A stretch of 64,000 nt of DNA, taken from contig NZ_CP031219.1 in the NCBI RefSeq assembly GCF_003346775.1, positions 2,790,001-2,854,000 of the forward strand. Direction: 5' to 3'. The notes beneath the pieces were generated by a model. The model ran no database searches. It saw nothing but the letters and a program-made list of their open reading frames with translations, and was not told where the DNA came from. This document shows positions 50,715 to 64,000 of this stretch, piece by piece. Both the position numbers and the translations under genes were made by a program. Source of the stretch: Malaciobacter mytili LMG 24559. Its GTDB lineage: Bacteria > Campylobacterota > Campylobacteria > Campylobacterales > Arcobacteraceae. Position 1 is the stretch's first letter. Every line of letters begins with the position of its first letter.

Positions 50715-51839
50715 ATGAGAGTTTTACTATTTGGAACAATTTTTCTAATTATTTTTTCTTTATTATGTTTATATATTTCAAAAAGATTTATAAATAAGCT
50801 TGATTTAAAGCCAAAATATAAAAAATATTTAAATTATTTTTTAGTTTTAAATCTTTTGGGGGTATTGGGTTATCTAGTATTTAGAAGATACCCAATTATT
50901 CCCAATGAAATATATTTTTTATTAAGTGTTCCTATTGGAATAATTTTTTTACTCTTCTCTACATCAGTTATTTATGATATTTTAAAATATCTTATCAATC
51001 ACTCTTCAAAAGATATTAAAAGAAGAGAGTTTTTTAAAAAATCTTTAGATATAACTGCTCTTCTTGCAGCTACTTCAATTAATGCAAAAGCTATGTATAA
51101 TGCAAGACATATACAAATAGAAGAAGTAAAAATTAAAATAAAAAATTTAAAAGAGTCATATAGCTTAGTTCAAATTAGTGATGTACATATTGGTGGTTTG
51201 GTTGATAAAGAATTTATTGCTTCTCTTGTAAAAAAAATAAATCTTTTAAAAGCTGATGTAGTAGTAATAACAGGCGATTTAGTTGATACTAATTTAAAGT
51301 ATGCAAAAGCTGCATTAGAAGAACTAGAAAATCTAAAATCTACTTATGGAACATATTTTATAGTGGGAAATCATGAATATTTTCATGGTATTGAAAATAT
51401 TATAGAAACAATGAAAAGTTTAAATATAAAAGTATTAGAAAATGAAAATATCTATATTGGAAAAGAAAATAGTGGTTTTTATTTAGCTGGAGTTTATGAT
51501 AGATTTGGAGAAAGATATGGAGAATATAAACCAGATATAAAAAAGGCTTTAGAAAATACAGAAGATTTTCCTACTATTTTATTGGCTCATCAACCAAAAT
51601 TTATTGAAGAAATTCCTTCAACATCAAATATTGATTTAATACTTTGTGGGCATACTCATGGAGGACAAATAATGCCTTTTAACCTTTTAGTAAAGCTTCA
51701 ACAGCCATATATTAGTGGACTTTATCAACATAATGATACTACTCAAGTATATGTAAATAAAGGAACTGGATTTTGGGGTCCTCCTATGAGATTAGGTGCA
51801 AGTTCTGAGATAACTTATATAAATTTAATAAGTAATTGA
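50715..51839 (+). CDS. Membrane-anchored YkuE-like metallophosphoesterase
   Basis: 374 aa. Four N-terminal hydrophobic helices (to about 95), a KRREFFKKSL stretch resembling a Tat motif before a short hydrophobic segment, and a calcineurin-type domain: DVH, GDLVD, GNHEYFHG, and GHTHGGQ with the final AHQPKF. The C-terminal VNKGTGFWGPPMR is the YkuE family mark. It probably cleaves phosphate from a lipid or envelope compound. A shorter paralogue lies at 60380. Confidence 0.87.
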   Translation: MRVLLFGTIFLIIFSLLCLYISKRFINKLDLKPKYKKYLNYFLVLNLLGVLGYLVFRRYPIIPNEIYFLLSVPIGIIFLLFSTSVIYDILKYLINHSSKDIKRREFFKKSLDITALLAATSINAKAMYNARHIQIEEVKIKIKNLKESYSLVQISDVHIGGLVDKEFIASLVKKINLLKADVVVITGDLVDTNLKYAKAALEELENLKSTYGTYFIVGNHEYFHGIENIIETMKSLNIKVLENENIYIGKENSGFYLAGVYDRFGERYGEYKPDIKKALENTEDFPTILLAHQPKFIEEIPSTSNIDLILCGHTHGGQIMPFNLLVKLQQPYISGLYQHNDTTQVYVNKGTGFWGPPMRLGASSEITYINLISN

Positions 51840-55054: not shown

Positions 55055-55145
55055 TTACTCTCTTTAAGTTAATTTTTCGCGATTATACTAAATATTTGCT
55101 TAAATTAAGGCAAGTGTAATTAAATTAATTGAAGATGAATAAAAA

Positions 55146-55193
55146 TTCATATTTCATTCATTCTGTTTTCATTCTTTCTTGATAAATTTTCAT
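55146..55193 (+). promoter_or_regulatory. Direct TTCAT repeats, 11-bp phased, upstream of the ABC/HCO-like operon
   Basis: TTCAT at 55146, 55157 and 55168 (exact 11-bp steps), and again at 55189. The hexamer TAAATT (55183-55188) stands 10 nt after the third repeat, in the -10 position. The layout is that of OmpR/PhoB-class activator sites and is shared with the region at 61102. Confidence 0.65.
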
Positions 55194-55215: not shown

Positions 55216-56295
55216 ATGTCAAATGCAATAAAGGCTTTAAAAGCCAATAAACTTAAGACATCTCTTATTGTTTTAAGTCTGATTTTTTCTATAACATCAA
55301 TATTTTTAATTACTTCTATTTCAAATGGTGTTATTTCTATGTACTCTACAATGCTAAAAAGTGATGGAGATATAATTATCACTCAAAGAAAAATATCAGA
55401 TACATTTTTTTCAAATATAGATATAAACTTAATTGAAAAATTAAATAACTTTAAAGAAGTTACAAAAGCTTCAGGCTTAATTGTGGGTGCAACTATTGTG
55501 GAAGAGTTACCTATAGTTGCTGTTTATGGAGTTACTACAAATAGGTTTGAAAACTATAAATTAATAAAAGGTAAATATCCTTTAAAACAAGAAGTTTTAC
55601 TTGGAAAATCTATTTTTGATAGTTTAAAAAATAAAAATGAAGTATTAATTGCAAATAAAAAATTTAAAGTGTCAGGGGTTTTTCAAAGTTCTATTGGATT
55701 TGAAAATGGAGGAGTTGTATTAAATATTGAAGATGCAAGTTCTATTTTCAATAAAAGTGCTTCTATGATAATGGTAAATTGTAAAATTGACACAAATATA
55801 TCTAAATTAAGTGATAAAATCAATCAACTAGATAGAAATATTGAAGCAAAATCTACAACAAGTTTTGTGGATAATTATAATCAATTTAAAATAATTAAAA
55901 CCTCATCAAATGTAATTTCTTTTATCTCTTTTTGTATGGGATTACTAACTATTGCTTCAATTTTAAGTATTACTATAAATCAAAGAAAAAGTGAATTTGG
56001 AATTAAAAGAGCTATTGGGGTTCCTATGAAAAAAATTCTAATACAAATTATAAATGAGAGTTTGATTTTAGCAGTTATTAGTTTTTTTATTGCCTTATTT
56101 ATTTCAAATATTGCCTTATATTTTATAAAAAACAGCTCACTTTTATATGGATATGTAAATGGAGAGATTTCACTAAATATTGCATTTTTTATTTTTATTA
56201 CTTCTATTTTAATAGCTATATTAGGTTCAATTATTCCAGCACTAAATGCTTCAAAAACTGATCCAATTATTTTAATTCAAGGAAATAAAATATGA
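55216..56295 (+). CDS. ABC transporter permease, FtsX/MacB type
   Basis: 359 aa with TM1 near 15-38, a large periplasmic domain (about 45-240), and three C-terminal TM helices (about 240-262, 285-305, 325-348). Conserved ends NQRKSEFGIKRAIGVPMKKI and IPALNASKTDPIILIQG fit MacB/LolC-type permeases, which move molecules across the envelope by mechanotransmission rather than classical transport. AAAGGAG precedes the ATG. It overlaps the ATPase gene by 4 nt and leads the seven-gene set. Confidence 0.88.
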   Translation: MSNAIKALKANKLKTSLIVLSLIFSITSIFLITSISNGVISMYSTMLKSDGDIIITQRKISDTFFSNIDINLIEKLNNFKEVTKASGLIVGATIVEELPIVAVYGVTTNRFENYKLIKGKYPLKQEVLLGKSIFDSLKNKNEVLIANKKFKVSGVFQSSIGFENGGVVLNIEDASSIFNKSASMIMVNCKIDTNISKLSDKINQLDRNIEAKSTTSFVDNYNQFKIIKTSSNVISFISFCMGLLTIASILSITINQRKSEFGIKRAIGVPMKKILIQIINESLILAVISFFIALFISNIALYFIKNSSLLYGYVNGEISLNIAFFIFITSILIAILGSIIPALNASKTDPIILIQGNKI

Positions 56296-56912
56296 TAAAT
56301 TTAAAAAATATCTCTCATAAATATGATAAAGAATTTGCTTTAAAAAATATAAACCTTGAAATTAAAAAAGGTTCATTTGTGGCAATTACAGGGGAGAGTG
56401 GAAGTGGTAAAACAACACTTTTATCTATTCTTTCTACTTTATTAAAACCCACAAGTGGGGAAGCTTTTTTTGAAGGAATAAATTATGAAAATATTAAAAA
56501 TATAGATGAATTTAGACAAAAAAATATTGGTTTTATTTTTCAGTTTCACTATTTGATAAATTATTTAACAGTAAAAGAAAATATCAATCTTGCAAAAGAC
56601 AGTGCAACTAAAGAAGAAATTAAAAACCTATTGGCAACTTTAAAAATTGAAGATTTAATTAATTCATATCCAAATGAAATTTCAGGAGGACAAAGACAAA
56701 GAGTTGCAATTGCAAGAGCTTTAATTAATAATCCAAAAGTAATCTTTGCAGATGAACCCACAGGAAATTTGGATTCAAAAAACTCTTTAAATGTATTTAA
56801 TATTTTTAAAAAACTATCACAAAAAGGTGTAACTATTGTAGTTGCTACTCATGATAAAGCTTTAGCGGCTTTTGCAGATATTAATATAAAGGTAAAAGAT
56901 GGACAACTTTAA
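56292..56912 (+). CDS. ABC transporter ATPase, LolD/MacB type
   Basis: 206 aa. Walker A GESGSGKTT, Q-loop FIFQFHY, signature SGGQRQR, Walker B VIFADEPTG, and the H-loop ATHDK. It pairs with the FtsX-type permease before it (ATGA overlap). It also overlaps the following membrane protein start by 14 nt, so all three are coupled in translation. Confidence 0.95.
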   Translation: MINLKNISHKYDKEFALKNINLEIKKGSFVAITGESGSGKTTLLSILSTLLKPTSGEAFFEGINYENIKNIDEFRQKNIGFIFQFHYLINYLTVKENINLAKDSATKEEIKNLLATLKIEDLINSYPNEISGGQRQRVAIARALINNPKVIFADEPTGNLDSKNSLNVFNIFKKLSQKGVTIVVATHDKALAAFADINIKVKDGQL

Positions 56913-58461
56913 TACATTTATAGAAAAACAGTTTAAAATTTCTATTATATTTTTATTTTTGGGATTATTTTTTGGGATTTTATACTCTATTAATCTATTG
57001 GGAGTATTTATTGATTCTACAACTTTAAATCCAGTAAATATAAGAAGTTTACATATCTCTCTTATGCTTTATGGGTTTGTACCTTTAATGCTTTCATATC
57101 TTCCTTTTTTACTTATAAATAAAGAAGTAGGAAGTATAAAAGATGGACTTTTTTATCTAAACTTATATACAATTTTTTGGTATATCTTTTTAATTTTTAT
57201 GATAAGTTGCTTATTATTTGGGAATACAAGAGGCTTAGCTTTTTATGACTTTCCTTATGAACTAAATTTTATTTTAGCTTTTGCAGGTTTATTTTATATT
57301 ATTGCTTTATATAAATATATTAAACAATATAAAGTAAAACCAACTTGGGTTAAAGTATCACTTTATATAGTTACTCTTGCTCCTTTTACTCTTTTAATCT
57401 TAATGAACCCAACTATTGGACAAGTTGAAAGTACAATTAGTGGTCCCCATGGAGATAATACTTTAGGTATGAGTTTTGCTTTAATTCCTATATATTACTT
57501 AATTATTAAACTATTAAACAAAGAAGAATTTAAAGCTAGATGGAATATTTTTTGGATGATTCCTTTAGCTTTTTATATCTTATCAGTTTTACATAGAAGC
57601 TTTATAGGTTCTTTATCATATAACCAAGAGTGGTTTTTTCAATATCTAACTTTACTTTATATTCCTTTATTATATAGATGGTATAAAGACTCAAACATTG
57701 ATAAATACCCAAAGTTAGCTCTTTTAATCTCTATTCTTGCTTTTTTATTTGTGGATATTGAGGGAAATATTTTATTTATTCCTGAACTTAGATGGGTATT
57801 TCATAGAAATGATTTAGTGGTTGCTCATGCTCATGTGGCTATGGGAATTGGCGTATTTTTTATGGTTATTGCTATGTTTGTTCAATATATAAAACAACTT
57901 CAAAAAATCAACTTTTATATATTATATTTATTTGGTCTTCTTGGTATTTTTATAGTTTTAAGTATTAGTGGGTTTATTCAAGCAGGGATGATTAATGGCT
58001 CAACACAAAACCTTTGGGTTGCTAGAACTATTTTTGGAATTTTTACTTTTCTTTCACTAATAGCTTTTGTAAATTTTAAATTTAATTTTACAACTATGGA
58101 AAAATATAATCTATTTGGAGTGTTAAATGATGGTTTTGGAGGAGTATTTTTAATCTTACTTGCAAGTTTTTTATATCCAATATTAGATTTTAGTTTTGAG
58201 GGTAAATACGAATATATAGTTTTTGCTTTTGTAAGTATTACAGGGCTTATTCATTTTTTAGCTTTTAAATACAAAGAGTATGAATTAATACTTACAAAAC
58301 TTACTGTTTTAATAAGAGTTTTTATAAGTTCAGTTTTTTTTGCTTTGTATATGTCTCATACATTAGGAGTTGTTGCTTTAGTAATATCTCTTTTTGATAT
58401 TTCAATGGTTATTTTTTATCTACTTACTTTATATAAAAAGGAGCAATTATGCAAAAATTAG
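56899..58461 (+). CDS. Heme-copper oxidase subunit I-like membrane protein (no visible CuB His pair)
   Basis: 520 aa, about 12-13 TM helices. H52 in SLHISLMLYGF resembles the helix-II heme ligand, and H310/H312 in VVAHAHVAMG the helix-X heme ligands of CcoN and NorB. H184 in SGPHGDNTLG and H232 are the only other candidates for a helix-VI or VII ligand. I see no His-His dyad, so CuB is probably incomplete. It may be a heme protein of electron transfer or sensing rather than an oxidase. No subunit II or III genes follow. Its ATG lies 14 nt inside the ATPase gene. Confidence 0.75.
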   Translation: MDNFNTFIEKQFKISIIFLFLGLFFGILYSINLLGVFIDSTTLNPVNIRSLHISLMLYGFVPLMLSYLPFLLINKEVGSIKDGLFYLNLYTIFWYIFLIFMISCLLFGNTRGLAFYDFPYELNFILAFAGLFYIIALYKYIKQYKVKPTWVKVSLYIVTLAPFTLLILMNPTIGQVESTISGPHGDNTLGMSFALIPIYYLIIKLLNKEEFKARWNIFWMIPLAFYILSVLHRSFIGSLSYNQEWFFQYLTLLYIPLLYRWYKDSNIDKYPKLALLISILAFLFVDIEGNILFIPELRWVFHRNDLVVAHAHVAMGIGVFFMVIAMFVQYIKQLQKINFYILYLFGLLGIFIVLSISGFIQAGMINGSTQNLWVARTIFGIFTFLSLIAFVNFKFNFTTMEKYNLFGVLNDGFGGVFLILLASFLYPILDFSFEGKYEYIVFAFVSITGLIHFLAFKYKEYELILTKLTVLIRVFISSVFFALYMSHTLGVVALVISLFDISMVIFYLLTLYKKEQLCKN

Positions 58462-59417
58462 CCCTAATATTTTTTATAGCTTTTGAGTTATGTTATTATT
58501 TGCTTATAGCACAAACAGGAATTGTTGAACATTTTTCTTCAAATATTTTTATAATTGCTCCTCTTCCTATAGGTGGAGTTATTGGGTCAGTTTTAAGTTA
58601 TTATATTAAGACTTCAACAAAAAATAAAATATTAGCTTTTTTAACAATTCAGTTAGGTGTTAGTATGTTTTATCCAAATTTAAATACTTTACTTTTATTT
58701 ATTCTTGGAATTAGTGTTGGAGCACTTGCACCTTTACTTATAAATGAGTTAAAAAAAGCCTCAAATATTCAACTTGGGTTTGCTTTAGCTATCTCATATG
58801 CTTTAGGAACATTTATGTTTACATATGAAGCTTCAAAAAGAACAAATATTGCAATTGTTTTTACTCTTATTTCTTTAGTTTGTTCACTATTTTTAAATAT
58901 AAAAGAACATAAAGATTTAACTAAAAACAGTTCTAATTTTTCCCTTTTTATAATGGTTTTATGGATATTTTTAGATTCTACTTTATTTGAAACACTTTCA
59001 AGGGATTTAAATACTTCTATTTGGAGAGATGGCTTTACTTTAGAAATAATTACTTTTCATTTAATTGGTGTTGCTAGTGCTTTTTATTTAAAAATGGAAA
59101 AAAATCAAAAAGAGTTATTAATTTTAACTTTATTTGCTCTTTCTTATTTATTTTATTTTTTACAAGAGGGATTGATCTTATCTATTGTTTATCCATTTGT
59201 AATCTCTTTTTACAATGTGATAATTCTTCAAACTATTGTAAAAAAAGATTTAAAAACTTTAGCAATTTATATGATTTTTATAGGTTGGGCCGCTTCAGGG
59301 GCTGGATTATTTGTAGCTTTAGAAAATCTAATTTTATATGTTCCAATTATTTTTCTAATTTGCTTAATTAAGATTTTAATAACACAACAAAAAAAGGAGA
59401 TACCATGTATAAATTAA
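58449..59417 (+). CDS. Multi-helix membrane protein, MFS-like
   Basis: 322 aa with about 10 hydrophobic helices and short loops: ALIFFIAFELCYYLLIAQ at the start, LPIGGVIGSVLSYY, and FALAISYALGTFMF. The helix-6/7 loop KEHKDLTKNSS is the usual place for a central MFS loop, so a truncated MFS-type fold is possible, but no motif A is seen. It overlaps the gene before it by 13 nt and the YceI gene after it by 13 nt. The function is unknown; it may work with the heme-copper-like protein. Confidence 0.65.
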   Translation: MQKLALIFFIAFELCYYLLIAQTGIVEHFSSNIFIIAPLPIGGVIGSVLSYYIKTSTKNKILAFLTIQLGVSMFYPNLNTLLLFILGISVGALAPLLINELKKASNIQLGFALAISYALGTFMFTYEASKRTNIAIVFTLISLVCSLFLNIKEHKDLTKNSSNFSLFIMVLWIFLDSTLFETLSRDLNTSIWRDGFTLEIITFHLIGVASAFYLKMEKNQKELLILTLFALSYLFYFLQEGLILSIVYPFVISFYNVIILQTIVKKDLKTLAIYMIFIGWAASGAGLFVALENLILYVPIIFLICLIKILITQQKKEIPCIN

Positions 59418-59929
59418 TTTTAGTTGCATTACTTGCAGTTTTTGCAAATGCTCAAAGTTTAAATTTTTCTACAGGAAAAATAGAAGCACATACGGAAATT
59501 TTTGGGGATAGTAATATTAACCCTTTTTCAGAAAATATACAATCAACTTTATCAATTAAAGAAAAGATTGATTCTTTAAAAGGAGTAATAAAAATAAATA
59601 CTCTAAGCTTACATAGCAATAATGAAAAAAGAGATGAACATATGTATGAGTTATTAAATACTACATTACATCCTCAAATCTCTTTTGAAATTACTTCTTT
59701 AACAAAAATAGAAGAGTTTTATGAAATACAAGGGGTTCTAACTTTAAATGGAGTAAAACAAGTAATTATGTCAAAAGCTAATATTTTAGAAGAGAATAAC
59801 CATATTATTTTAAATGGAGATTTTTCTATAAATCTTACTTCATTTGAATTAAAACCGCCAAAACTTCTATTTTTAACAGTAAGAGATAGAATTGATATTA
59901 AATATAATTTAGATTATATTAAAGGATAA
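59405..59929 (+). CDS. Exported YceI-family protein
   Basis: 174 aa with a signal peptide (1-16, cut after ANA). The YceI lipocalin-like barrel runs from about 22 to 172, with VLTLNGVKQVIM and SFELKPPKLLFLTVRDRIDIKYNL as the typical strands. YceI proteins bind long isoprenoid chains such as quinones in the periplasm. With the membrane proteins of this operon, it may handle a quinone or isoprenoid lipid. Confidence 0.88.
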   Translation: MYKLILVALLAVFANAQSLNFSTGKIEAHTEIFGDSNINPFSENIQSTLSIKEKIDSLKGVIKINTLSLHSNNEKRDEHMYELLNTTLHPQISFEITSLTKIEEFYEIQGVLTLNGVKQVIMSKANILEENNHIILNGDFSINLTSFELKPPKLLFLTVRDRIDIKYNLDYIKG

Positions 59930-59932
59930 AAG

Positions 59933-60379
59933 GTGAAAAAGTTTTTATTATTAATAACTCTTTTAGTTTGTACTTATGCTCAAGAGTTTACCTTAAATAC
60001 TAAGATACAAAACTTCTCTTTAGCTAATCAATTTGATGAAAAAAGAACTATAACAAATAATATTCAAACTATTATTGTCTCATTTGAAAAAGATACAGGA
60101 AAAGAAATAAATGAGTTTTTAAATGAAAAACAACCAGATTTCTTACAAAAACATAATGCAGTTTTTATTGCAAATATCTCTGGTATGCCTATGTTTGTTA
60201 CAAAAATGTTTGCTCTTCCTAAAATGAGAAGTTATAAACATGAGATTTTACTAATTTATGATGAAAATGATAAAAGATTTATTGCCAAAGAGGGTAACTC
60301 AACTTTATATAAATTAGAAAATGGTGTAATAAAAAGTATAAAATTTATTACTAAAGATGATTTAGCAAAAGTTTTTTAA
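59933..60379 (+). CDS. Small exported protein, thioredoxin-like/YtfJ-like fold possible
   Basis: 148 aa starting at a GTG, with a signal peptide (1-16). The order of strands (IQTIIVSFEKDTG, NAVFIANISGMP, HEILLIYDEN) and the FALPKMRSYKHEILL segment are those of a thioredoxin-like fold without the CxxC pair. It resembles hypothetical periplasmic proteins next to YceI genes in this phylum. No catalytic cysteine is seen. It lies directly before the metallophosphoesterase gene (0 nt gap). Confidence 0.6.
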   Translation: MKKFLLLITLLVCTYAQEFTLNTKIQNFSLANQFDEKRTITNNIQTIIVSFEKDTGKEINEFLNEKQPDFLQKHNAVFIANISGMPMFVTKMFALPKMRSYKHEILLIYDENDKRFIAKEGNSTLYKLENGVIKSIKFITKDDLAKVF

Positions 60380-61099
60380 ATGAAACTTCCAATTGCAACT
60401 ACAAAAATTTTAGAAGTAAAAAGTGAGGCTTTGCATAATTTGCAAATCCTTCACCTAAGTGATTTACATATAAATAAAAAAACAACTCTTTGTGAAATAA
60501 AACAATTAATAAATATATGTAAAAACATAGCCTATGATTTCATTGCTTTAACAGGAGATATTATTGATTGTAAAGTAAAAGAGATAAAACCTCAACTAGA
60601 ACTTTTAAACTCTTTAGAAAAGGTATATTATATAAGTGGTAACCATGATTTATTTTATGGAATAGAGCCTTTAAAACAAAGTTTAAATAACTTTACTTTT
60701 TTGGATAATACTACTACTTTTTTTACTTATAAAAATAGACAAATTGCCATTGCAGGATTAAGTGATAGATTCTCTAAATTTTTTAAAATAAAAAGAGAAG
60801 AAAAAAAAATTACTAACTTTTTAAAAGCTAATCCTATTTCTATTTTATTAGCTCATCAACCAAAAGATTATACTTTTGCTATAAATTCAAATACAAAATT
60901 ATTTTTATGTGGACATACCCATGGAGGACAGATTTTTCCCTTTCATTATTTTGTAAAATTAGTACAACCTTTTTTAGCAGGAACCTTTTATAAACAGCAA
61001 ACTTGTATTTATGTAAATAGAGGATTAGGTACTTGGGGGATAGATTTTAGATATAAAGCAAATAATGAAATTACTTTACTTAAATTAGTATATAAATAG
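60380..61099 (+). CDS. YkuE-like metallophosphoesterase without membrane anchor
   Basis: 239 aa. Complete motif set: DLH, GDIID, GNHDLFYG, AHQPKDY and GHTHGGQ; the C-terminal VNRGLGTWGIDFR is the YkuE mark. Unlike the paralogue at 50715, it has no N-terminal helices. It closes the seven-gene set. The substrate is unknown; the family acts on membrane-associated phosphate esters. Confidence 0.87.
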   Translation: MKLPIATTKILEVKSEALHNLQILHLSDLHINKKTTLCEIKQLINICKNIAYDFIALTGDIIDCKVKEIKPQLELLNSLEKVYYISGNHDLFYGIEPLKQSLNNFTFLDNTTTFFTYKNRQIAIAGLSDRFSKFFKIKREEKKITNFLKANPISILLAHQPKDYTFAINSNTKLFLCGHTHGGQIFPFHYFVKLVQPFLAGTFYKQQTCIYVNRGLGTWGIDFRYKANNEITLLKLVYK

Positions 61100-61163: not shown

Positions 61164-61832
61164 ATGAAAATACTAATTATAGAAGATGATGAAAAAATTA
61201 TAAACTTTCTAAAAAAAGGTTTAGAAGAAGAGTCATATGTTATTGATTATTCTTTAAATGGAGATGAAGGTATATATCTTGCAAGTGTAAATGAATATGA
61301 TTTAATTTTACTTGATATTATGCTTCCAATTAAAAATGGTATAGAAGTGTGTAAAACTTTAAGACAAAATAATATTAATACTCCAATAATTATGCTAACA
61401 GCAAAAGATACTATTGAAGATAAAATAAAAGGTTTGGATATAGGTGCAAATGATTATTTAGCAAAACCTTTTTCATTTAGTGAACTTCTAGCTAGAATTA
61501 GAGTACAACTAAGAACAAAAAACTCAAACCAAACAACACTTAAAATCTCAGATTTAGAACTTGATTTACTTTCAAAAACTGCAAAAAGAGCAGGAGATAT
61601 TATCAATCTAACAGCAAAAGAGTTTGCTTTTTTAGAATATCTAATAAAAAATAAAGATAGAGTATTATCAGAAAGTGTAATAAGTAGTGCCTTAAGCAAT
61701 ATGGATGATATGAATATTAGTAATATTGTAAATGTATATATTTATAGACTTAGAAATAAAATAGATAAACCCTATGAAAAAAAACTTATAAAAACTATTA
61801 GAGGGTTAGGATTTAAAATAAGTGATGAATAA
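61164..61832 (+). CDS. OmpR/CusR-type response regulator
   Basis: 222 aa. The receiver domain has acidic pocket EDDEK at 7-11 and the phosphorylated Asp in LILLDIMLP, then LTAKD and the K of YLAKPFS. A winged-helix DNA-binding domain follows (LTAKEFAFLEYLIKNKDRVLS; YIYRLRNKID; IRGLGFKI). It is closest in pattern to CusR/CopR-type regulators. It overlaps the kinase gene by 8 nt. Confidence 0.95.
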   Translation: MKILIIEDDEKIINFLKKGLEEESYVIDYSLNGDEGIYLASVNEYDLILLDIMLPIKNGIEVCKTLRQNNINTPIIMLTAKDTIEDKIKGLDIGANDYLAKPFSFSELLARIRVQLRTKNSNQTTLKISDLELDLLSKTAKRAGDIINLTAKEFAFLEYLIKNKDRVLSESVISSALSNMDDMNISNIVNVYIYRLRNKIDKPYEKKLIKTIRGLGFKISDE

Positions 61833-63210
61833 TATATCAATCAAAAAAAAGCTTTTAATATATAATATTTTTATTCAAATAGTAATTTTATTTCTTTTTT
61901 CAATCTCTTTATATAAAACTTTAGAAATCTCTTCTAAAGATAAAGTGGAAGCTACTTTAAAAGTAATATTACTTGATGTGGTTGATGATGTAATTGAGCA
62001 TAAAAATGAACTTACAAATAGAGTATTTGATGAAGAAAAAGAGTATAAGTTTGAACCTTTATATATTAGGCTTTTAGAACTACAAAATGATTTTTTAGTA
62101 ATTAAAAGTACAACTTTTCCAAATGAGATAAAAAGTAAAATAGCTAAACTTAAATTATTAAAATCTAACAATATAGTTTTTGAATATCAAAAAGATTATA
62201 TTATTAGTAGAATAAAGTTTGATATAAATAATAAAGACTATGTTATAGAAGTAGCAACTGATTTTACAACTATAAATTCTACTTTAGAAAATCTTATATA
62301 TATTCTTTTATTTATTGTTCCTATTATTTTGATTTTTTCTATAATTGGAGGATATTTTTTAATTTACAAATCTTTTTCTCCCATAGAAAAACTTTTAGCA
62401 AATTTAAAAAGTATAAATGCAAGTGATTTATCTAAAAGACTTCCTTTTAAAAATAAAAATGATGAAATAGACCTTTTAGCAAAAGAGATAAATAATCTTT
62501 TATATAGACTTGAAATCTCTTTTAATAAAATCTCTCAATTTAGTAGTGATGCTTCCCATGAACTTAAAACTCCCCTTACAATTATTAGAGGAGAAATAGA
62601 GATAGCTTTAAGAAAAGATAGAGAAGTTTGTGAATATAAAAAAAGTTTAGAAAACTGTTTAGATGAAGTTATAGTAATACAACAAACCATAGATGATTTA
62701 CTTTTTTTAGCAAGAAAAGAGCATGAAGTTATTGAACAAAGAAAAGATGAACTTTATCTTGATGAGGTTAGTTTAGAAGCCTTTAAAGAGATGCAATCTT
62801 TTGCAAAATTAAAAAATATAAAACTTTTATGCCAAATAGATGAAGCTATGCAAATAAAAGGTCATCATAAACTACTAAAAATAGCTATTAAAAATATACT
62901 TAAAAATGCAATTTCTTTTAGTTACGAAAATAGCGAAGTTATTATAAGAAATTATAGTGATGAATATAATTATATTATTTGTATTGAAGATAAAGGTATT
63001 GGCATTTGTAAAGAAGAACAAGAAAAAATTTTTGAAAAATTTTATAGAACAGATAAAAGTAGAAATAAAGAATCAGGTGGAACAGGACTTGGGATGGCTA
63101 TTGTTGAAAAAATAGTAAAACTTCATCAAGGTAAAATAAAACTTGAAAGCCAAGAAAATATAGGAACAAAAGTATATTTTGTATTTAAAAAGGAAAATAA
63201 TGAATATTAA
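61825..63210 (+). CDS. Sensor histidine kinase
   Basis: About 461 aa. TM1 near 10-27, a periplasmic sensor domain (about 28-160), TM2 near 165-188, HAMP, HisKA with the phospho-His in SSDASHELKTPLT, and HATPase_c with N, G1 (DKGIGI), F and G2 boxes (GGTGLGMAIV). The pattern FYRTDKSRNKESGGTGLG is frequent in heavy-metal sensor kinases, so copper or a similar signal is possible. I chose ATG 61825 over a GTG one codon upstream. Confidence 0.92.
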   Translation: MNNISIKKKLLIYNIFIQIVILFLFSISLYKTLEISSKDKVEATLKVILLDVVDDVIEHKNELTNRVFDEEKEYKFEPLYIRLLELQNDFLVIKSTTFPNEIKSKIAKLKLLKSNNIVFEYQKDYIISRIKFDINNKDYVIEVATDFTTINSTLENLIYILLFIVPIILIFSIIGGYFLIYKSFSPIEKLLANLKSINASDLSKRLPFKNKNDEIDLLAKEINNLLYRLEISFNKISQFSSDASHELKTPLTIIRGEIEIALRKDREVCEYKKSLENCLDEVIVIQQTIDDLLFLARKEHEVIEQRKDELYLDEVSLEAFKEMQSFAKLKNIKLLCQIDEAMQIKGHHKLLKIAIKNILKNAISFSYENSEVIIRNYSDEYNYIICIEDKGIGICKEEQEKIFEKFYRTDKSRNKESGGTGLGMAIVEKIVKLHQGKIKLESQENIGTKVYFVFKKENNEY

Positions 63211-64000
63211 AAAAGTTGTAAAACTAAACTTTTTAATTATTATTATTTTAATTTTATCTATTTTTTTAGTAAATAGTATTGTTTTGGAAAAATTAAAAGA
63301 GAATCAAATTTCAAAAAAAGAGATTTCAAAACTTGTATTTATGCAAGAAAATATGAATTTTTTAGTAAAAGATATAATTGATACTCAAAATCTTAAAGAG
63401 CTACAAGAGATAAAAGATGAATTTTTAACTTATGAAATAAAGTTTGAAAAAATAAAAGAGCTACTTTTAGTAAAAGATAAAGATGATTTTTTAGACTTTC
63501 TAATTAAAGATATACATAAACACCCTAAAGTTTTAAAGCACTTACTATTACTTTCAAAATCTGAAAAGAATATTGAAGAAAATTTTGAAAAAATTTTTGA
63601 AATACAAAAAAGAAAAATAGAATTAAATAGTCTATTTTTACAAGCTTATCCCAAAGAGAGTATCTTAAGAAAACAAATAGAAAAGCAAATTTTACAAACA
63701 AAAGATTTTACTATTTTAAAAGACTTTTCTGATATTAAATATTATAGTAAAGAGGTATTTTTTCAACATAAAGAAAAAGCCCACCTAGAACTTTTACTTA
63801 AAAAAATCTATTCTTTAGAAAAAAAATATTCAAATAAAGAAATCAAAGAGTATAGAAATATTGTAAAAATTATCTCAACTTATGTTTTAGAACTAAAAAA
63901 ACTAGAAAATCAAGAAAAACTTTTACAAGATAATATTACTAAAATTGTAAAAGAAAATAAAAATTTAAACTTTAAAATTGAACATGAAATAGAAAAGTTA
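63200..64000 (+). CDS. Start of a membrane-anchored protein, cut by the window end
   Basis: The frame is open for 267 codons from ATG at 63200 with AAGGAA as ribosome site, overlapping the kinase stop by 11 nt. TM1 is at about 9-27, followed by a long, Lys/Glu-rich helical region (LKELQEIKDEF; KENQISKKEISKL) like the periplasmic part of signalling proteins. No kinase, GGDEF or HAMP motif has appeared by the window end. Its overlap with the kinase suggests a third member of the signalling unit. Confidence 0.75.
   Translation, partial: MNIKKVVKLNFLIIIILILSIFLVNSIVLEKLKENQISKKEISKLVFMQENMNFLVKDIIDTQNLKELQEIKDEFLTYEIKFEKIKELLLVKDKDDFLDFLIKDIHKHPKVLKHLLLLSKSEKNIEENFEKIFEIQKRKIELNSLFLQAYPKESILRKQIEKQILQTKDFTILKDFSDIKYYSKEVFFQHKEKAHLELLLKKIYSLEKKYSNKEIKEYRNIVKIISTYVLELKKLENQEKLLQDNITKIVKENKNLNFKIEHEIEKL

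Follow-up and report, generated by a model that had tools for sequence, protein, structure and literature searches.

The known roles of heme-copper oxidases are those of terminal oxidase and nitric oxide (NO) reductase. In Burkholderia cenocepacia, cytochrome b561 LcoA and the YceI lipocalin BcnA shield envelope lipids from peroxidation, polymyxin stress included; lipid peroxides build up in mutants, and in the authors' proposal LcoA serves to reduce the ubiquinone bound by BcnA (PMC9113575). In Vibrio vulnificus, the two-component system CarRS drives a dgkA-eptA-mdoB operon (PMC10433830). Here we describe an operon of Malaciobacter mytili LMG 24559 (Campylobacterota) that has features of both systems. 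It lies in a stretch of 64,000 nucleotides (the window; contig NZ_CP031219.1, positions 2,790,001 to 2,854,000) and joins a COX1-like relative of heme-copper oxidase subunit I to an ATP-binding cassette (ABC) pair, a YceI lipocalin and a phosphoesterase. The comparison suggests that a respiratory enzyme has been repurposed for membrane lipid upkeep or repair.

Results

The seven genes at 55216-61099 are all on the forward strand, with junctions of -4, -14, -13, -13, +3 and 0 nucleotides (nt). These overlaps and gaps of 0-3 nt, with the shared synteny, confirm the single unit named in a preliminary description made from the sequence alone. That description ended the unit at 61099; its seven genes stand and the end does not, as a response regulator gene and an overlapping kinase gene follow. 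Its inventory was likewise correct as far as it went, and lacked the major facilitator superfamily (MFS) fold of gene 4, the replacement of the phosphoesterase by a NAPE-PLD-like enzyme in other clades, the CusR/HprR-type two-component system and a 38-bp operator. A scan for promoter and terminator consensus sequences gave matches no commoner than in shuffled sequence.

The COX1-like gene was sought with a profile of 31 homologues in 397 Campylobacterota genomes from 68 genera (the scan beyond Campylobacterota used peptide patterns of the query COX1-like protein only), and it was found in 60 genomes from 18 genera. Sixty neighbourhoods were compared, two of which are second copies of the same contig. 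The two ABC genes, the MFS-fold gene and the YceI gene accompany it almost everywhere (Table 1), such that a five-gene core, the COX1-like gene included, is retained in 58-60 of the 60 loci. This synteny is far above chance, and the co-occurrence across Campylobacterota that the preliminary description proposed to look for is thus found. The order of the genes differs from clade to clade, which makes their constant company more telling. In Sulfurospirillum arcachonense (G207), an Arcobacteraceae-type operon, two-component system included, looks to have been acquired by transfer as a block: its COX1-like protein is 72% identical to that of M. mytili, against 53-54% in other Sulfurospirillum, whereas its CcoN is as distant from the host CcoN (78%) as those of its relatives (79-80%). 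A plasmid search for homologues found none. In another Sulfurospirillum genome (L104 in G403), eight stop codons interrupt the COX1-like gene, and the neighbouring operon genes keep open frames.

The 520-residue COX1-like protein is assigned to no NCBIfam family. As modelled, it has the twelve-helix heme-copper oxidase subunit I fold, with a His in transmembrane helix (TM) II and an HxH in TM X. The AlphaFold2 model (predicted local distance difference test, pLDDT, of 86.9) best matches cytochrome c-type NO reductase (cNOR) and cbb3 oxidase subunit I, with VIA Z of 24-26.5 and a root-mean-square deviation (rmsd) of 4.1-4.4 over 356-370 residues, within model residues 1-396 (Z 25-26 to 4xyd, 3o0r and 8smr); Foldseek gives an E of 8e-6 to the cbb3 structure 3mk7. 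Four extra helices (399-519), which include the invariant H452, follow the heme-copper oxidase fold (residues 1-393). A sequence search of the PDB with the COX1-like, MFS-fold and 148-residue protein profiles gave no real match, an absence that we do not take as evidence.

Among 74 distinct homologues, H52, H184, H302, H310, H312 and H452 are invariant, and so are D186, Y226, R233, Y241, E244 and D305. In profile alignments, H52, H302, H310 and H312 fall on the equivalent His of the host CcoN and NorB with the top confidence of 9. The earlier assignment of H52 and H310/H312 as heme-type ligands is upheld by this invariance and alignment; H184, H302 and H452 were absent from that list. The CuB His-His pair, which the same description had reported missing, was found conserved in no alignment register of the 74 sequences: residue 232 is Y, H, I, T, E or W, 233 is the invariant Arg, and 238 is variable. 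The alignment of TM VI-VII is weak (hhalign confidence 1-5). The CcoN register, which sets GDNTLG over GHNAVG with low local confidence, brings D186 to the first CuB His and G237/S238 to the His-His pair; the NorB and A-type registers bring 232/R233 to that pair, and the A-type alignment places H184/D186 in the loop preceding TM VI. Judged from these alignments, both heme sites look retained and CuB lost. We do not claim a peroxidase-like distal pocket made of H184 with R233, nor a substitution of CuB by a D186-R233 ion pair, because the register of TM VI-VII is uncertain.

No subunit II or III gene was seen beside the COX1-like gene in the neighbourhoods listed, as first noted for M. mytili, an unlinked partner being still possible, and no linked cytochrome c subunit or quinol domain was seen in these neighbourhoods. 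A full set of CuB ligands together with a linked subunit II gene was looked for, and neither turned up in these alignments and neighbourhoods. As the host encodes its own CcoN (L001) and a NorC-NorB pair (L002), the COX1-like gene is a third, separate COX1-type gene. With the CuB pair absent, no linked subunit II seen and these enzymes present in the host, we reject membership among the respiratory oxidases or NO reductases; in our reading, the protein is no oxygen reductase. A search of open papers for CuB-less oxidases returned irrelevant matches only, and still no described system that matches the locus was found in open papers.

Gene 7 of the operon occupies a slot with two alternative contents. 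Across the 60 loci, it holds a calcineurin-type phosphoesterase in 42, a metallo-beta-lactamase-fold enzyme in 15, neither in 3 and both in 0; in one clade, the metallo-beta-lactamase-fold gene runs convergently to the YceI gene on the opposite strand. The closest solved structure to this alternative enzyme is NAPE-PLD (4qn9, E 3.3e-37, residues 15-284); it has a Lactamase_B_2 match and its fold can be aligned over the NAPE-PLD core, its activity being predicted only. On the COX1-like tree, starred branches require at least three changes for the swap, one of which rests on a long branch (L054). Genome-wide searches of 40 genomes found none with both phosphodiesterases at the operon, and the calcineurin-type paralogues in genomes with the alternative enzyme are longer or more distant (29-34% identical). 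The YceI and phosphoesterase genes lie together on another contig in G041, and the alternative enzyme is on another contig in G335. Since two unrelated folds share one slot, the reaction is probably what matters, and this would probably be the cleavage of a lipid phosphodiester. No signal peptide was seen in the M. mytili phosphoesterase. The host also has a longer calcineurin-type paralogue (~383 residues, 38% identical to gene 7; genome 2841153-2841830, window ~51153-51830, + strand), which is widespread in relatives. Near the operon of some clades with the NAPE-PLD-like enzyme, there is a multihaem (MtrC/cytochrome c7-like) lipoprotein (L087:2481-4253, L048:6086-7780, L088:10316-12013; family checked for L087 only).

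The response regulator gene starts 64 nt past gene 7 in M. mytili and 3-66 nt past it in most Arcobacteraceae loci; at a few loci it overlaps the phosphoesterase gene, and in L026 eptA-dgkA and one more gene lie between. Its product comes closest to the models of Cop/Sil/Czt, HprR and CusR, all below cut-off. The putative operator in front of the operon has 0 mismatches, where 0.05 sites are expected in the window at up to 3 mismatches, and is the only site with at most 2 mismatches in the 3.04-Mb host genome. We searched 38 genomes for it, with the reversed pattern as a control. It was found at the operon, in the same place and with at most one mismatch, in every one of the 26 genomes searched that have an Arcobacteraceae-type operon, and five relatives that have no operon gave only matches with two mismatches, or no match at all. 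The reversed pattern gave four matches in total, and chance sites at up to one mismatch are estimated at ~0.011 per 3-Mb genome. In Sulfurospirillum (L042:10858-11544 and other loci), the kinase by the operon is shortened to ~228 residues, has no ATPase domain and has no regulator gene linked. In two clades without the two-component system (L036:6256-11037, L040:11605-14827), the operon adjoins a sensor kinase, a small periplasmic-binding-like protein and a porin-like protein.

Six extra operator sites with at most one mismatch lie 40-49 nt upstream of genes across the 38 genomes. Such sites precede eptA-PAP2-dgkA (G393), cptA (G413), an MdoB/LtaS-like gene followed by eptA-PAP2-dgkA (G418), a cytochrome b561 gene followed by an LtaS-like (phosphoglycerol-transferase-like) gene (G023), and a DUF5666 gene with another two-component system (G007). 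In G321 (L263:39-6486), two back-to-back copies stand between divergent LtaS-like clusters that contain dgkA, PAP2 and their own CusR-like two-component system, and the oxidase-relative operon of this genome is itself without one. In M. mytili, eptA-dgkA lies downstream of the two-component system without an operator of its own, after the kinase and HD-GYP genes (genome 2854858-2856819, same strand, starting 858 bp past the window); eptA or eptA-dgkA is near the operon also in L026, L105, L030 and L058. The HD-GYP-type gene directly follows the kinase or adjoins the operon in several genera (L030, L056, L059, L060, L090, L105), which hints at a possible cyclic di-GMP link to the regulon. Near the operon, or next to an operator-led eptA cluster, genes for DUF1924 (SHP-like), dihaem cytochrome c and cytochrome b561 are repeatedly found clustered (L226:6498-8866 in the host, past the window; L259:4569-6619; L059:2433-4502; L027:943-2984).

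The best NCBIfam model for the ATPase is LolD (200 bits, under its cut-off). A Pfam scan gave no credible family for genes 4 and 6. The gene 4 model (pLDDT 92) matches MFS transporters with VIA Z of 22-24 and rmsd mostly 3.2-4.0 over ~300 residues, and no substrate can be read from it as the individual matches are tied. The YceI protein has a hydrophobic N-terminus resembling a signal peptide, and its profile retrieves E. coli YceI, PA0423, C. jejuni YceI and BcnA-type structures. The two other YceI genes of the host score 155-161 bits, as canonical types, and are far from every cytochrome b561 match; no cytochrome b561 gene directly linked to the gene 5 YceI was found, the host's own lying elsewhere. 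The 148-residue protein has no credible Pfam or PDB relative.

Table 1. Features of the operon and its surroundings in the M. mytili window, with the number of the 60 compared loci in which each gene is linked to the COX1-like gene.
Feature	Length	Position in window	Strand	Linked loci	Support
Putative operator ATGAA-N6-TTCAT-N6-TTCAT-N6-TTCAT	38 bp	55135..55172	+		exact match, 43 nt upstream of gene 1
Gene 1, FtsX/MacB/LolC-type ABC permease	359 aa	55216..56295	+	59/60	Pfam FtsX 58 bits, MacB_PCD 58 bits
Gene 2, ABC ATPase, LolD/FtsE/MacB-like	206 aa	56292..56912	+	59/60	Pfam ABC_tran 128 bits
Gene 3, COX1-like protein	520 aa	56899..58461	+		Pfam COX1 45.7 bits (cut-off 34.8), model, structure matches, invariants, profile alignment
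Gene 4, compact MFS-fold membrane protein	322 aa	58449..59417	+	59/60	predicted structure
Gene 5, YceI-family lipocalin, divergent subfamily	174 aa	59405..59929	+	58/60	Pfam YceI 65.9 bits (cut-off 23.7)
Gene 6, secreted-looking protein	148 aa	59933..60379	+	41/60	conserved FEKxTG and MFALPKM motifs
Gene 7, calcineurin-type phosphoesterase (YaeI/LpxG-like)	239 aa	60380..61099	+		Pfam Metallophos 52.9 bits
OmpR-family response regulator (CusR/HprR group)		61164..61832	+		NCBIfam models; part of unit in Arcobacteraceae
Sensor histidine kinase partner		61822..63210	+		Pfam/NCBIfam; gene overlaps regulator gene
Membrane HD-GYP-type protein		63200..64000, on to genome 2854774 (L226:180-1775)	+		overlaps kinase gene

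Discussion

We propose that the operon is a conserved module for envelope-lipid maintenance, controlled in Arcobacteraceae by its own two-component system along with genes of lipid A modification by phosphoethanolamine, and that the COX1-like protein acts in it as a copper-less heme electron carrier. Taken whole, this proposal seems to us evenly balanced. Its broader part, an envelope-lipid function under this regulon, is likely, and at the level of gene content the lipid context is well supported on three sides, by the families of the linked genes, by the exchange of phosphodiesterases and by the regulon. The resemblance of the predicted regulon to the CarRS dgkA-eptA-mdoB arrangement points to an envelope-lipid module, and the resemblance of the YceI and heme b pair to LcoA-BcnA points to the electron carrier. 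That the COX1-like protein is specifically a YceI reductase is a tentative suggestion by analogy. The preliminary description had favoured periplasm-facing quinone, heme or metal handling, which now appears too broad and probably mis-weighted, as the regulon and the swap indicate envelope lipids; for the YceI and oxidase-like proteins, redox work with quinone or heme stays plausible as a partner function, and for the metal part nothing specific speaks except the family of the regulator.

In Arcobacteraceae, the kinase would sense envelope stress and the regulator, as we infer, would bind the TTCAT-repeat operator and switch the operon on; in several relatives it would also turn on eptA/cptA, dgkA and the genes for a PAP2 lipid A phosphatase and for MdoB/LtaS-like transferases. 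At the inner membrane, lipids may be moved or extracted by the LolCD/MacB-like ABC pair together with the MFS-fold protein. The YceI lipocalin may be the periplasmic carrier of a lipid or an isoprenoid (quinone), and the cytoplasmic phosphodiesterase, calcineurin-type or in other clades NAPE-PLD-type, would cut the phosphodiester of a membrane lipid. Through its two predicted heme sites and without CuB, the COX1-like protein could take electrons from menaquinol and hand them to quinone held by YceI or to lipid radicals, as proposed of LcoA for BcnA.

Several points weigh against this proposal. The operator and the intact two-component system occur only with Arcobacteraceae-type operons and are missing from Sulfurospirillum and deeper clades, so that the argument from the regulon covers part of the family, and G416 has a linked two-component system without the operator. 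The closest named relatives of the regulator are copper/silver and peroxide/hypochlorous acid (HOCl) regulators. The substrates of the phosphodiesterases are deduced from families that also contain non-lipid enzymes. Finally, some operon-positive lineages may live mostly anoxically, where lipid peroxidation should matter less.

Of the other explanations, the one that survives best, unlikely as it is, holds that the operon encodes a lipid or lipoprotein transporter in which a redox-inactive COX1-like protein is only a membrane scaffold or a proton-coupled part. The loss of CuB, the four added helices and the lack of a redox partner subunit would fit, and the ABC, MFS, YceI and phosphodiesterase proteins all suit lipid transport. 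However, a scaffold is unlikely to need heme ligands, and the three ligands H52, H310 and H312, with H302 and D305 near the heme edge, are invariant in the 74 sequences down to ~47% identity. These same residues would suit a CuB-independent reductase that detoxifies NO, peroxide or O2 while the other genes repair the surrounding membrane: H302 and the high-spin heme ligand H310 have counterparts in both CcoN and NorB, D305 has one in CcoN, the fold is nearest to cNOR and cbb3, and the regulator resembles HprR, the HprSR system responding to HOCl. We nevertheless consider this quite improbable, as the CuB/FeB His pair is absent from all 74 homologues, no linked subunit II or cytochrome c subunit was seen in the neighbourhoods listed, the host already has CcoN and NorC-NorB, and the linked genes and regulon are lipid genes. 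Slighter still is the chance of a copper, heme or oxidase-assembly system with an FtsX-type exporter, a metal-responsive two-component system and a COX1-like scaffold or sensor, for although regulator and kinase are nearest to heavy-metal (Cop/Sil/Czt) models and FtsX-type ABC pairs are present in some metal systems, the linked genes include no metal chaperone, P-type ATPase or obvious metal-binding Cys/Met motif, the regulon sites lead to lipid A genes, and the exchange of phosphodiesterases would be left unexplained.

If the envelope-lipid module is as we propose, a conserved family with both heme sites, no CuB and ties to lipid rather than respiratory genes would be a new use of the heme-copper oxidase fold, and lipid A modification and lipid redox repair would be joined in one regulon. 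Through the operator and the pair of interchangeable phosphodiesterases, the function can be tested at once.

The individual parts have known counterparts, from each of which they depart. The COX1-like protein shares with CcoN (cbb3) and NorB (cNOR) the fold over residues 1-393 and all heme-ligand positions; unlike them, it lacks the CuB pair (in the best register the TM VI CuB His is replaced by Asp186, with His184 two residues off), bears four extra helices and sits among lipid genes, with no linked subunit II/III or cytochrome c seen. The ABC pair has an FtsX-type permease with a MacB core domain and a LolD-like ATPase, as in LolCDE, MacB and FtsEX, but it scores below every curated NCBIfam cut-off, has one permease gene, and is accompanied in the operon by neither MacA nor a second Lol permease. 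As in CarRS-type regulons, a two-component system would be tied to EptA, DgkA and an MdoB-like transferase; in contrast to CarRS, the putative operator consists of ATGAA-N6-TTCAT repeats instead of GACA-N6-TACA, and the predicted regulon adds the oxidase-relative operon. Compared with LcoA-BcnA, the heme protein has a CuB-less heme-copper oxidase fold and is not a cytochrome b561, and the operon adds the ABC pair, the MFS-fold protein, the phosphodiesterase and a dedicated two-component system. Both nevertheless link a membrane protein with b-type heme sites, here predicted, to a secreted YceI lipocalin in a context of envelope stress, and in G023 a cytochrome b561 gene likewise has this operator in front of it. 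If the proposal is true, Campylobacterota gain a counterpart to the LcoA-BcnA system.

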